Shown here piece after piece: positions 31,270 through 36,661 of a stretch of DNA of 64,000 nucleotides (position 1 is its first letter; each line of letters begins with the position of its first letter). This DNA comes from Mangrovicoccus algicola (GTDB taxonomy: Bacteria; Pseudomonadota; Alphaproteobacteria; Rhodobacterales; Rhodobacteraceae), in NCBI RefSeq assembly GCF_014903745.1, contig NZ_JACVXA010000005.1, forward strand, positions 62,001-126,000, given 5' to 3'. The position numbers and the translations under genes are program-made. The notes beneath the pieces are model-generated. The model ran no database searches and had not been told where the DNA came from. It was given only the letters and a program-made list of their open reading frames with translations.

Positions 31270-33288
31270 GTGACCATCACTCCCGCGCAAGAGACCCATC
31301 CCGACCACTGGAAGAAGGCCGCCGCGATCCGCACGCTGACGCTGGACGCCGTGGCCGCGGCCAATTCCGGCCATTCCGGCATGCCGATGGGGATGGCGGA
31401 CGTGGCGACCGTGCTCTACGAGAAGCATCTGAAATTCGACGCCGCCGCCCCCGGCTGGCCGGATCGCGACCGGTTCATCCTGTCTGCGGGGCACGGCTCG
31501 ATGCTGCTCTACGCGCTGCTGCATCTCACCGGCTCGCCGGAGATGACCCTCGACGAGCTGAAGAATTTCCGCCAGTGGGGCGCCAGGACCGCCGGGCATC
31601 CCGAATACGGCCACGCGCCGGGGATCGAGACCACCACCGGCCCGCTGGGCCAGGGCATCGCCACCGCCGTCGGCTTCGCCATGGCCGAGGAAGTGCTGCG
31701 CGCCCGCTACGGCCGCAAGCTGGTGGATCACTACACCTGGTGCATCGCCGGCGACGGCTGCCTGATGGAAGGCGTCTCCCAGGAGGCGATCGGCCTGGCC
31801 GGCAAGCAGGAGCTGTCGAAGCTGATCGTGCTGTGGGACAACAACAACATCACCATCGACGGCACCGTCGACATGGCGGACCGCACCGACCAGATGGCGC
31901 GGTTCCGCGCCTCCGGCTGGTCGGTCTTCGAATGCGACGGGCATGACCCCGAGGAAATCGACCAGGCCATCACCGAGGCGAAGAAATCCCAGAAGCCCTC
32001 GATGATCGCCTGCCGCACGCATATCGCGCTCGGCTCCGCGGCCCAGGACACGTCGAAGGGCCACGGGGCGCTGACCGATGCCGGGCTGGTGGCCGATACC
32101 AAGGCCGCCTATGGCTGGCATCACGGCCCCTTCGAGGTGCCCGCCGATGTCAAATCCGCCTGGGAAGCCATCGGCGCGCGCGGCGCAGCCGATCACGCCG
32201 CCTGGCGCGACCGCCTGGACGCCGTCTCCGCGTCGCGCCAGGCCGAATTCGCCCGCGTCATGGCAGGCGATCCGCCCAAGCGCCTGGCCGCCACCGTCCG
32301 CGCGCTGAAGAAATCCTTCGCCGAGGACATGCCCAAGCTGGCCACCCGCGCTGCCAGCCAGAAGGCGCTGGACGCGATCAACCCGATCGCGCCGGAAACC
32401 CTGGGCGGCTCGGCCGACCTGACCGGGTCGAACAACACCAAGGCCGGCGGGATCGAGGTCTTCGAGCCCGGCAACCGCAAGGGACGCTACGTCCATTACG
32501 GCATCCGCGAACACGGCATGGCCGCGGCGATGAACGGCCTGGCGCTGCATGGCGGGGTCAAGCCCTATGGCGGCACCTTCATGTGCTTTGCCGACTATGC
32601 CCGCGGGGCGATGCGCCTCTCGGCGCTGATGGGCGTTCCGGCAGTCTATGTGCTGAGCCATGATTCCATCGGCCTGGGCGAGGACGGCCCGACCCACCAG
32701 CCGGTGGAACACCTGGCGATGCTGCGCGCGACGCCCAACACCCTGGTGATCCGTCCGGCGGATGCCACCGAGACGGCCGAAGCCTGGGAGATCGCGCTGG
32801 AGCAGAAATCCACGCCCTCCGTCCTGGCCCTCTCGCGCCAGGGCACGCCCGCCCTGCGCGACAGCTACTCGGCCAAGAACCTGACGGCGCGCGGCGGCTA
32901 CATCATGGCCGAGGCCACCGGCAAGCGCCAGGCGATCCTGATGGCCACCGGCACCGAGGTCGCCATCGCCATGGAGGCCCGCAAGCTGCTGGAGGCCGAC
33001 GGCATCGGCACCCGCGTCGTGTCCATGCCCTGCTGGGAGCTGTTCGAGCAGCAGGACGAGGCCTGGCGCCGCAAGGTCCTGCCGGCGGGTCCGGTCCGCG
33101 TGGCCGTCGAGGCGGGCCTGCGCTTCGGCTGGGACCGCTGGCTCTGCGACGAGCGCGGGCGCCGGGAAAAGGCGGGGTTCATCGGGATGGAAGGCTTCGG
33201 CGCCTCCGCCCCGGCCGAGGTGCTCTACGAGAAATTCGGCATCACCGCCGAAGCCGCGGCGCAGAAGGTTCGCGACCTTCTGGGCTGA
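31270..33288 (+). CDS. tkt: transketolase
   Basis: Transketolase exchanges two-carbon units in the pentose phosphate and Calvin pathways with thiamine diphosphate. The product has 672 residues. The thiamine site [16 protein letters not shown] ... [35 protein letters not shown] and the second signature [13 protein letters not shown] are intact. The start is GTG at 31270 with GAGGAG seven bases upstream. An earlier in-frame GTG at 31201 gives an unconserved Arg/Pro-rich extension and is rejected. No other pentose phosphate gene is adjacent. An imperfect GC-rich hairpin without a T-run follows the stop. Confidence 0.96.
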
Positions 33289-34496
33289 GCCCGGTCCGGC
33301 TCCTGCCCGGCCCCGCGCCGGACAGGACCCCTCCCGCAGGTCGCGGTCGACAGCACCCGGCCTGCACCGCCGCCCCGGCGGGGCGGGCCCATCCGCCTCC
33401 CGCATCGGCTCACCTGACGGGCAGGGCTGGCAGCCCGGGATTTCCGCAGGCGCCGCGCCGGTCGCCCCCCGTCGCCGCCGCCCTGGCCAGACCATGTCCG
33501 CGCCGGAGAGAACAGGCCGCCTGCGCCCTTGCCGGTCGACATGTCGGCATCGCCATCCGCCGGGAGCGGCCCCGCACCGGCCTCCGGCCCAGCCCAGCCC
33601 CTCCCGCAGCCCCGGATCGGCGCGACAGGGCCCTTCGCCCGCCGCCATGTCCGGCCAGCCGGTCCCCCGGGCGGATGCAGGAACCCCGTCGAACTCTCCT
33701 CCCGATCCGGTCCCTGCAGCGTCTCCGTCCTCGGACAGACCGCATCATCCAGCCCTTGCTATGGACCCGCACGCGCCCTCCGACCGGGGCGGCGCCCCCC
33801 TTCCAGAAGAGGCGGGACATGCTGCAGGGGCCGCTCCGCCCCCGCCGCCGGGTCCTGCGGCGAAGCGCGGGCGAACGCCCTCCCGGGCAATCCGCGGACC
33901 GGCCGGCGGCAGCAGGGCCGACCGGAAGGCCGGGTCCTGTCCGCCGGTCACGCCGATGCCCTGCCCCATCCTCCCTGCGGATCGGCCCCGTCGGCGCCTG
34001 GCATGACCGCCCCCGGGGCCGGGACGATGAGTCCCGATCGCATGAGACCGGCCGTGACCGGGACGCGCCAGCCACTCCTCCGGCAACGGAGCCCGTCTCC
34101 GCCGCGCGGGACCGCTCCGTCAGGGTGTCGGCAGGGCGCAGACGGGGGGTATCGGCAGCGTTCGCGGCCTTGCCGTTCCGCATCCCGCCCCGCCCTGTCC
34201 CGCCCCGGCCTCGAGCCGGGGCCACCTGCCCCGACAAGACAGCGGCTCCTGCCGGGCAGGCCGGGCGAACGCGCCATTGCGGGTCCGCCGGTGCCGTGGA
34301 TGAGGCCGGAGGCAGCGGCGCCGGGCAGTGCCCGGACCCGAGACCTTCGCCGGGCGCCGACAAGGGCCGTACGGAACCGGAGGGGGCGAAACGGGCGGAA
34401 GGACACGCGCCGTTCCGGAACGGAGACGGCGGATGAAAGAAAGGCGCGACCGCCTGATCCGCTCTGCCGCCGATCCCGCCCCGTGCCTCCCGGATG
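33289..34496. other. 1.2-kb GC-rich stretch with no recognisable gene
   Basis: Every long open frame here (on both strands, up to 363 codons) reads as low-complexity Arg/Pro/Gly/Ala with no domain, no hydrophobic core pattern and no coupled ribosome site. I do not see tRNA, an IS end or a CRISPR repeat. An imperfect inverted repeat at about 33303-33327 could terminate tkt. The stretch may be decayed sequence or hold an RNA I cannot see. It is the longest gene-free stretch in the window. Confidence 0.55.
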
Positions 34497-35261
34497 TCAG
34501 GCGGCGCGCGGGCCGGGCTGCAATTCCTGCCCCGGCAGGCTGCCGCCGCAAAGCGCAGCCTGCCAGCGCGGATCCAGACCCAGCTGCCGCATCCGGGCGA
34601 CCGCCCCGCCCAGGTCGTAATCCAGCCGGTGAAGCCGGGCCTGTCCGGCCCGGATCATCACGAACCGGGTCCGGCGGCTGCCATCGCCCGGCGGCAGGCC
34701 CAGCATGCCCGTGCCGATCCATTCCACGCCCGCCGCAACGCGCCGGAAGGCCGGGCCCGCCCCGCTGCTGAAAATCGTGTCGCAGCGGCCCAGATGCGGT
34801 TCCAGCCGTGCCGCCAGGGCACCAAGATCGCACTCCGGCAGATCGGCTTCCGGTGCCGTGCCTGCGCACGGCGCGATCACGCCATACTGCCGCCCCCGGT
34901 GACGGAACACGGCCGCGCCCGGCAGGGCGTCCAGCCACATCCGGTCGCGATCGGGCAGCCGGTCATCGGCCAGCCGGTACCAGTCGCGCCCGGCCAGCGG
35001 CCCGCCGCGGCGCGGCCCGGCCCCGAGCCTGCGCTCCGTCTCCGCCGCGAGAACCGGGCCGCCCAGCGTGCGCAGGGTCGAGACCACGGCGCCGGGATCG
35101 CCGCAGGGCCCGACCAGCCCGCCGTTACAGATCAGCGCAGCCCGGTCGACGCGGCGCCGCGCCGCCTCCCCCAGCAGGGCCATGAGCGCCTGCAGATTCG
35201 AGGCCGGCGCGCCCGAAACCAGGACCGGTCCGTCCAACTGCCCGAGTGCCGCGACCTTCAT
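34497..35261 (-). CDS. metallophosphoesterase-like protein lacking the metal ligands (probable pseudoenzyme)
   Basis: The 254-residue protein follows the order of calcineurin-like (YfcE-type) phosphoesterases but has lost their active site. VSGAPASNLQAL stands where family members have SDIHGNLPAL. CNGGLVGPCGDP replaces LGDLVGYGPDP. AAETE stands for GNHD. IAPCAG stands for the HG motif, and SSGAGPAF for GHTHRP. The flanking hydrophobic and spacing pattern is kept, including DALPGAAVFRHRGRQYGVI and the C-terminal WIGTGMLGLPPGDG in place of NPGSVGQPRDG. It should not bind two metal ions. It may be a binding or regulatory protein, or a decaying gene. ATG 35261 follows AGGAAGG. It is divergent from the CorC-type gene, 71 bases away. 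Confidence 0.65.
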   Translation of the reverse strand: MKVAALGQLDGPVLVSGAPASNLQALMALLGEAARRRVDRAALICNGGLVGPCGDPGAVVSTLRTLGGPVLAAETERRLGAGPRRGGPLAGRDWYRLADDRLPDRDRMWLDALPGAAVFRHRGRQYGVIAPCAGTAPEADLPECDLGALAARLEPHLGRCDTIFSSGAGPAFRRVAAGVEWIGTGMLGLPPGDGSRRTRFVMIRAGQARLHRLDYDLGGAVARMRQLGLDPRWQAALCGGSLPGQELQPGPRAA

Positions 35262-35332
35262 CGGCTGCCCTTCCTGAACCGCCCGCCCTGCCCTATCATG
35301 TGGCTTCCAGTCAGACACAAGGACGTTAAGGA

Positions 35333-36661
35333 ATGGACACCGCCGCCCCGGTTTTCGACGCCGCATTCTGGATCACCACACTCGCGGTGCTGGGATTGCT
35401 GGTCATGTCGGGCTTCTTCTCGGGATCGGAAACCGCGCTGACCGCCGCCTCGCGGGGAAAGCTGAAGGCCAAGGCCGATGCCGGCAGCCGCGGCGCCGGC
35501 GAGGCGCTGCGGATCACCGAGGACAACGAGCGGCTCATCGGCTCGGTGCTTCTGGGCAACAACCTGGTCAACATCCTCGCCACCTCGCTGACCACGGCGC
35601 TGTTCACCCGCGCCTTCGGCGATGGCGGGGCGACGCTGGCCCTGGCGACGCTGATCATGACCTTCCTGGTGCTGATCTTCGCCGAAGTGCTGCCCAAGAC
35701 CTACGCGATCACCAATGCCGAGGTCGCCGCCGCCGCGGTGGCGCGGCCGATCTCGATCATCATCCGCGTCTTCTCGCCGGTGGTGATGGCCGTGCGCGCG
35801 CTGGTGCGCACGGTGCTGAAGCTCTTCGGGGTGGAGACCGACCCCCAGAACAACGTGCTTGCCGTGCGCGAGGAAATCTCGGGCGCGCTGGCGCTGGGGC
35901 ATTCCGAGGGCGTGGTGCAGAAGGAGGATCGCGACCGGCTGCTGGGCGCGCTCGACCTGGGCGACCGCACGGTCGAGGAGATCATGAAGCATCGCAGCGA
36001 AATCGAGATGATCGATGCCGACGCGCCCTCCGAGGAGGTGCTGGCGCAATGCCTGGCCTCGCCGCATACCCGCCTGCCCGTCTTCCGCGAGAGCCACGAG
36101 AACATCATCGGCGTGATCCATGCCAAGGACCTGCTGCGCGGCCTGGCGAAGGCCCGCGAGGAGGCCGGGGACGGCGCGGTCCTGCCCGCGGCCTTCGACA
36201 TCCTCTCGGTCGCGCGCAAGGCCTATTTCGTGCCCGAGACGACCACGCTTGATGACCAGATGCGCCAGTTCCTGAAACGGCACACGCATTTCGCGCTGGT
36301 GGTGGACGAATACGGCGTGCTGCAGGGGCTGATCACGCTGGAGGACATCCTGGAGGAGATCGTCGGCGAGATCACCGACGAATTCGACACCGGCGAGACC
36401 CAGGGCATCGAACGCGGCCCGGACGGGCAATACGTGGTCGATGGCTGGGTGACGATCCGCGACCTCAACCGCGCCAATGAATGGCAGCTGCCCGATACCG
36501 AGGCCAATACCATCGCCGGGCTGGTGATCCACGAGGCCCAGATGATCCCGGTCGTGGGACAGGTGTTCAATTTCCACAATTTCCGCTTCGAGATCCTCGG
36601 CCGCGAAAAGAACCGGATCAGCCAGATCCGCATCGCCCCGGTCGGCAGCGCGGCCGGATAG
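35333..36661 (+). CDS. HlyC/CorC (CNNM-type) membrane protein with CBS domains
   Basis: The 442-residue protein has a DUF21 membrane domain (about residues 10-190, four hydrophobic segments, with SGFFSGSETALTAASRGKL and FAEVLPKTYAI), then two CBS domains (about 205-340) and a C-terminal CorC_HlyC domain starting near residue 360 (DGWVTIRDLN). The family is linked to magnesium and cobalt export or homeostasis (CNNM/MpfA). Haemolysin names are historical. TAAGGA before the ATG is a good ribosome site. A UUCG-loop terminator lies about 100 bases after the stop. Confidence 0.9.
   Translation: MDTAAPVFDAAFWITTLAVLGLLVMSGFFSGSETALTAASRGKLKAKADAGSRGAGEALRITEDNERLIGSVLLGNNLVNILATSLTTALFTRAFGDGGATLALATLIMTFLVLIFAEVLPKTYAITNAEVAAAAVARPISIIIRVFSPVVMAVRALVRTVLKLFGVETDPQNNVLAVREEISGALALGHSEGVVQKEDRDRLLGALDLGDRTVEEIMKHRSEIEMIDADAPSEEVLAQCLASPHTRLPVFRESHENIIGVIHAKDLLRGLAKAREEAGDGAVLPAAFDILSVARKAYFVPETTTLDDQMRQFLKRHTHFALVVDEYGVLQGLITLEDILEEIVGEITDEFDTGETQGIERGPDGQYVVDGWVTIRDLNRANEWQLPDTEANTIAGLVIHEAQMIPVVGQVFNFHNFRFEILGREKNRISQIRIAPVGSAAG

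Follow-up and report, generated by a model that had tools for sequence, protein, structure and literature searches.

The gene at 34497..35261 on the minus strand of the window (the whole 64,000-nucleotide stretch of Mangrovicoccus algicola DNA analysed here) is best read as encoding a pseudoenzyme, a protein with the metallophosphoesterase (MPE) fold that has lost all of its metal ligands and is kept as a folded protein; by its locus the gene is the ortholog of an MPE-like family whose members do carry ligands. We give this reading a probability of about 0.7. The frame runs for 254 codons plus a stop from an ATG at 35261, a start position common to all four genomes sampled from the window's genus. 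With every metal ligand lost, the protein cannot carry out two-metal phosphoester hydrolysis as it is known, and what is left is a homolog of an enzyme family without the catalytic motifs, which is how pseudoenzymes, a recognised class, are defined (PMC10211241). A first-pass annotation, made from the letters alone, had already favoured a pseudoenzyme, and the predicted fold, the missing ligands and purifying selection in three genes of the genus bear that reading out.

The predicted fold is that of a metallophosphoesterase

The AlphaFold2 model of the window protein (pLDDT 87.4, pTM 0.87) has the MPE fold over its full length; its C-terminus is weak, with the last 9 residues below pLDDT 50 and another 26 residues at 50-70. 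The model of an intact relative reaches pLDDT 96.2. Both models have the same best matches among solved structures, 3qfm/3qfn (SapH), 2gju, 1nnw and 3rqz, at Z 24-26.5, and for both the next structure group follows at Z of about 17. For the window model the individual values are 25.4 to 2gju (228 residues aligned, 2.7 Å), 25.3 to 1nnw, 24.7 to 3rqz and 24.3 to SapH 3qfm, the next group standing at 16.8. Structure prediction had been set beforehand as a test and returned the MPE fold and not another, so that, as modelled, the window protein is an MPE (calcineurin-like) fold. The claim that the calcineurin-like order and spacing can still be read agrees with an alignment to family members and five canonical MPEs.

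Profile searches give a more graded picture. Pfam and NCBIfam scans of the window protein returned zero matches at E 10; the Pfam Metallophos and Metallophos_2 gathering cut-offs were reached neither by it (P0001) nor by L003 and L004, all three lacking a match at E 10, and at its curated cut-off the YfcE family TIGR00040 had no match in the window protein. A profile of the parent family (A2) does match it, at E 1e-51 over positions 1-261 of 269. Among five relatives scanned, four exceed the PF12850 cut-off and the fifth that of PF00149, and three match TIGR00040 at 11-24 bits (cut-off 56); their DUF and PSP matches lay below the respective cut-offs and were ignored. The proposed comparison with YfcE-type enzymes needs correcting on this point: the profiles place the nearest kin among Metallophos/Metallophos_2 proteins close to 3rqz, 1nnw and SapH, and not in YfcE in its strict sense.

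All metal ligands are gone

MPE enzymes carry five motifs, D-x-H, GDxx, GNH(D/E), H and GHxH. In the window protein SGAPASN (residues 16-22, 35196..35216, minus strand, as are all sites given here) takes the place of SDIHGN at motif I, where the family mostly has FGGPYSN; NGGLVGP (residues 46-52, 35106..35126) stands at motif II, its NGGLVG in the place of GDLVG; and AAETE (residues 72-76, 35034..35048) replaces GNHD at motif III, where the family has GNCE. Further along, VIAPCAG (residues 128-134, 34860..34880) replaces the HG of motif IV (VxHGG), and SSGAGP (residues 165-170, 34752..34769) replaces GHTH at motif V (GHxH; family mostly AGH[SC]G). These are the substitutions the first-pass annotation had named, and each recurs in our alignment. 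Between motifs III and IV, a cysteine segment that reads DCGCGFxxGSxCD in the family is deleted, leaving PRRGGP (residues 83-88, 34998..35015). A five-motif ligand test on the alignment finds 0 of the canonical metal ligands in the window protein, and Asp48, Asn74, His139, His179, Cys86, Cys88 and Cys96 (family numbering) are kept at 0/7 positions in 3/3 genus members with a full frame.

Newly missing in the window's genus are Asp-II, Asn-III, His-IV, the cysteine segment and, from motif V, the first His. Asp-II (family column 48) has become Gly and the motif III Asn has become Glu in 3/3 members, and since D48G, N74E, C86G and N195G are identical across all three, ligand loss most likely precedes the divergence of the three full-length members. 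Gly, Ala or Ser now occupies D48, H139, H179 and N195. At motifs IV and V the replacement residues vary among the three members, which gives no sign of a new function at those sites, and the residues newly fixed in the genus include N74E, Q78R, G244R and Y245W.

Erosion targets the site and is not uniform. We took the 61 alignment columns that are at least 95% constant among 75 relatives and compared them with the three genus members: none of the 8 ligand, Cys and Asn195 columns is kept in all three, as against 30 of the 53 other constant columns (Fisher p 0.005, the 8 having been picked after viewing the alignment).

A parent family with a putative unusual centre at a shared locus

Of 394 genomes sampled from the taxonomic family, 80 gave a match in a search with the window protein, among them G150 with a 66-residue match bearing five stops that we took as chance, and a profile built from 30 relatives matched 83/394. 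Four genomes (G030, G274, G304 and G395) were set aside as carriers because they hold only canonical MPEs of other families, and after their removal the gene is detected in 79/394. From the genome collection at least 546 relatives were confirmed among 593 listed pattern stretches; a direct query of genome contigs with the window protein sequence returned nothing.

Motif counts were made on an alignment of 137 distinct relatives with five canonical MPEs of the same taxonomic family, in which the five keep every motif intact. The motif-I Asp is absent in 137/137 relatives (Gly in 136, Arg in 1) and the motif-I His in 133, being kept in 4; the His of GNH is absent in all 137 (Cys in 119, else Val, Met or Ile), as is the last His of GHxH (Gly in 136, Ser in 1). 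Asp-II is kept in 136, and Asn-III, His-IV and the first motif-V His in 137 each. The four retained residues are presumably the second-metal ligands, and those lost the first metal's own. The claim that all five motifs were lost thus holds in the window's genus, with the correction that the loss came in two steps, part of it being older and extending outside the genus.

Three near-invariant cysteines (CGCGF...C; columns 86, 88 and 96) were also observed across L037-L116 of the parent family, which is without the first-metal ligands; in the 137 relatives Cys86 is kept in 136, Cys88 in 135 (one miss being an unread residue) and Cys96 in 136. Judged from these residues, a textbook two-metal site is not possible in the family proteins studied, and the Cys-bearing centre is a putative unusual metal or redox site.

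A gene with CNNM, CBS and CorC_HlyC domains is present in 109/116 family stretches and lies divergently within 1 kb in 103/116; as the 116 include some loci fetched twice, the count by distinct protein is 91/104. The median gap between the two genes is 74-76 bp. The window has the same arrangement, with the family's usual syntenic partner at 35333..36661 on the plus strand and a gap of 71 bp between the divergent starts (35262..35332, assigned to neither strand), which we read by eye; likewise by eye, a purine-rich run resembling a ribosome-binding site precedes the ATG in 4/4 genus genomes. In the protein tree the genus members fall inside the Rhodobacteraceae/Roseobacter MPE-like family, and the family profile has a single match in each of the 4/4 genus genomes, with no second family copy found in these four (one of them, G001, 84% complete). 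Other Metallophos_2 matches occur elsewhere in the window's genome, and the family profile did not detect them. The shared locus, the tree and the one match per genome make the window gene an ortholog by locus, not a duplicate with an active sister copy.

On the other flank, a convergent ORF seen at L039:7096-8232 (minus strand) has homologs in 69 other family loci of the 77 examined, and the L039 copy, the only one scanned, is a Phage_integrase-family tyrosine recombinase; we rejected the convergent ORF as an operon partner. Coding-strand ORFs also recur, in up to 55 other loci, at places overlapping the convergent ORF, and from their position we take them for antisense of the recombinase ORF. 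At the corresponding place the window has an apparent transketolase instead. The stretch of about 1.2 kb between transketolase and gene (33289-34496) is very GC-rich, with abundant overlapping ORFs and no evident gene, and an Rfam scan of 33200-35500 gave no hit.

Purifying selection, and how else the gene might be explained

Our genus sample comprises 4 genomes, 3 with a full frame and 1 (G001) with codons 1-42 only; the two full-length congener orthologs are 63% and 61% identical to the window protein. Differences per codon position among the three full genes are 0.22-0.25, 0.19-0.26 and 0.43-0.51. When a codon model is fitted to each of the six frames across these genes, the sense frame has an omega of 0.009-0.091, with omega=1 rejected (2dlnL 87-166). 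This sense omega is only rough, because no reliable dS could be obtained for the window gene (estimates of 2.98, 12.65 and unbounded), and we therefore also scaled its dN (0.21-0.27) by dS of the neighbouring HlyC gene (0.76-0.90). The quotient is 0.28-0.30 in the window's genus versus 0.04-0.15 in six pairs of intact relatives. As far as codon comparisons can tell, purifying selection acts on the three genus genes and is weaker than in the intact relatives. The annotated intact full-length frame, of 254 aa, is accordingly confirmed by the congener orthologs and an omega far below 1, and the proposed ortholog check came out mixed: 3/4 genus genomes have the full frame under purifying selection, and against this stand the weaker constraint and the 42 codons left in G001.

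That weaker constraint, roughly two to seven times below the six intact pairs, is also an argument for the strongest alternative, that the ancestral function has become dispensable in this genus and the gene is on its way out, its site eroded and its frame yet unbroken in three species. Protein identity points the same way, being 61-68% within the genus at HlyC identity of 93-94% and 70.5-91.1% in 10 pairs of relatives whose HlyC proteins are 92-96% identical. Other observations fit this alternative too: G001 retains just 42 codons with a transposase close by, the frame of G401 is broken, G211 has an internal TGA, and the gene is found in just 79 of the 394 sampled genomes of the taxonomic family. 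Yet ligand loss is most likely older than the split of the genus and omega has been far below 1 since, structural residues are kept, and a neutral gene is not expected to hold a 254-codon frame at an HlyC dS of 0.76-0.90. We consider decay unlikely on this balance, though it deserves to be taken seriously.

A second alternative is that the protein is still a catalyst, its metal or catalytic residues having migrated, for example to the newly fixed Glu74, or its chemistry having become metal-free. N74E is indeed fixed in 3/3 genus members, and migration of catalytic residues is reported for some pseudoenzymes (PMC10211241). With 0/4 ligand columns and 0/3 Cys columns kept, and with Gly, Ala or Ser now at D48, H139, H179 and N195, we think continued catalysis very improbable. 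Finally, that there is no such gene or that sequencing errors made the motifs can be practically dismissed: only one sense and one antisense frame of the six lack stops in all three genes, and the 315-aa antisense ORF (34494-35441, plus strand), open in a GC-rich stretch with a main frame that is stop-free across the three genes, was rejected as the true gene because its omega is 1.4-1.6 versus 0.009-0.091 in sense (frame anti+1 has a low omega too, 0.14-0.24, but stops in every pair), while assembly error was rejected because the same changes are common to three genomes.

Separate losses and decay in other lineages

The window's genus is not the only lineage in which the site has eroded. G358, from another genus, no longer has Asn-III, His-IV, the cysteines or the His of motif V but keeps Asp-II and Asn195, and its congener G420 is intact (L175 eroded versus L174 intact). 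For the protein tree, a clade uniting the window genus with G358 was not rejected by the AU test (p 0.64), and the tree constrained to this grouping outscored the free quick tree by 9.6 log units. We ascribe this failure to reject to long branches, and set aside a single shared loss, since G420 is intact and the HlyC tree groups G358 with G420 and the intact L098, apart from the window genus. On this reading G358 lost three of four ligands and the cysteines separately. G360 has Asp48 replaced by Asn and its cysteines gone, with the other ligands kept; it falls in the same starred group as the window genus in the protein tree and apart from it in the HlyC tree, and in the AU analysis the pairing of the two has a support of 3.

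Each of the three eroded lineages has lost cysteines together with at least one ligand, a hint that these residues form one common site. A broader proposal, possible in our view and rather doubtful, is that the parent family represents a new type of MPE centre in which the first metal site was abolished and the second-site ligands would join the three cysteines of CxC...C, in most members with the GNC cysteine as well, in a mixed Cys/His/Asp/Asn metal or redox site. This unit would then have disappeared as a whole on separate occasions, in the window genus, in G358 and in part in G360, with the full-length frame open each time, as a repeated conversion from metalloprotein to binding protein. 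Purifying selection after site loss was tested in the window genus only.

In the protein tree the window genus stands beside Aliiroseovarius sequences, and in the HlyC tree it groups with Pseudoruegeria SK021 (support 90), so that the two trees discord on the nearest relatives of the genus (L010/L011/L122 versus L037/L038/L177); the discord could stem from a long branch or from a transfer. We accordingly call the gene an ortholog by locus, whose descent may not have been strictly vertical.

Decay was also observed in the wider family, where G401 has a frame broken with internal loss and G211 an internal TGA (L121 and L026). In G001 the ortholog stops short after its first 42 codons, with a DDE transposase ORF close by (L117:7952-8854), which indicates that one congener may have lost the gene; since the neighbouring HlyC frame is disrupted too, with two ambiguous bases, and the assembly is 84% complete, the break could be partly a matter of assembly.

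Discussion

Having argued that the window gene encodes a pseudoenzyme, we can ask how it might have come about and what it might do. The sampled family would mark a first stage, in which the Asp of motif I and the final His of GHTH are already missing and Asp-Asn-His-His and three cysteines remain. The window genus would next have lost the four ligands and the Cys segment before its species split, and the protein would afterwards have stayed folded and under purifying selection. The gene is probably expressed and its product would bind no catalytic metal. Its present job is probably binding or scaffolding, of which purifying selection is an indirect sign; most likely it still serves the process in which the ancestral protein took part, perhaps together with the divergent CNNM/CorC neighbour; the usual neighbourhood suggests such a link to the CorC/HlyC membrane protein. 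A fold kept under purifying selection after site loss most likely binds something, either a partner or, in the emptied cleft, a ligand, and the place left by D48G, H139A/S, H179G/S, N195G and H204G is a candidate for this, with N74E, Q78R, G244R and Y245W as candidate changes accompanying it. The ligand-binding role, floated in the first-pass annotation, is one we infer, and the faster evolution, the variable replacements at motifs IV and V and the G001 remnant count against a firm new role.

At one syntenic position, related bacteria carry versions of the gene that range from intact through partly and fully eroded to broken. This makes it possible to trace the step at which catalysis was lost and the reason why an empty fold is retained, and G358 (eroded) and G420 (intact) offer a clean before/after comparison within one genus. 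The finding also draws attention to an uncharacterised MPE-like family.

Inactive MPE folds are already known. Vps29 keeps the calcineurin-like fold, is catalytically inactive and serves as a scaffold; its likeness to the window model is a fold match only (TM of about 0.4). Most of the inactive MPEs that have been studied well are ancient and come from eukaryotes. The B-subunits of eukaryotic replicative DNA polymerases are another case, described as an inactive calcineurin-like fold turned scaffold (PMC4996933), and they differ from the window protein in being eukaryotic, multi-subunit and far in sequence. Among the papers listed in our literature searches there is no description of this MPE-like family, of its loss route or of a bacterial MPE pseudoenzyme of such kind.

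Closer to hand, Metallophos/Metallophos_2 MPEs of the 3rqz and SapH/Spr1479 type have the same fold along almost their full length (Z 24-26.5), whereas the window protein has no metal ligand and no Pfam or NCBIfam match at E 10. The parent Rhodobacteraceae/Roseobacter family shares locus, tree, fold and a similar length at 29-42% identity; it keeps Asp48, Asn74, His139, His179 and the three cysteines in nearly all 137 relatives, and the window genus keeps none. The nearest solved folds by Z are archaeal, 1nnw from P. furiosus and 2gju (PH1004) from P. horikoshii, at 15-18% identity and in a separate lineage. In our alignment motifs II-V of 1nnw read GNIVG, RGKYD, VYGSP and VASPM, so that it looks degenerate too, and an apparently emptied MPE of such size has thus already been crystallised.
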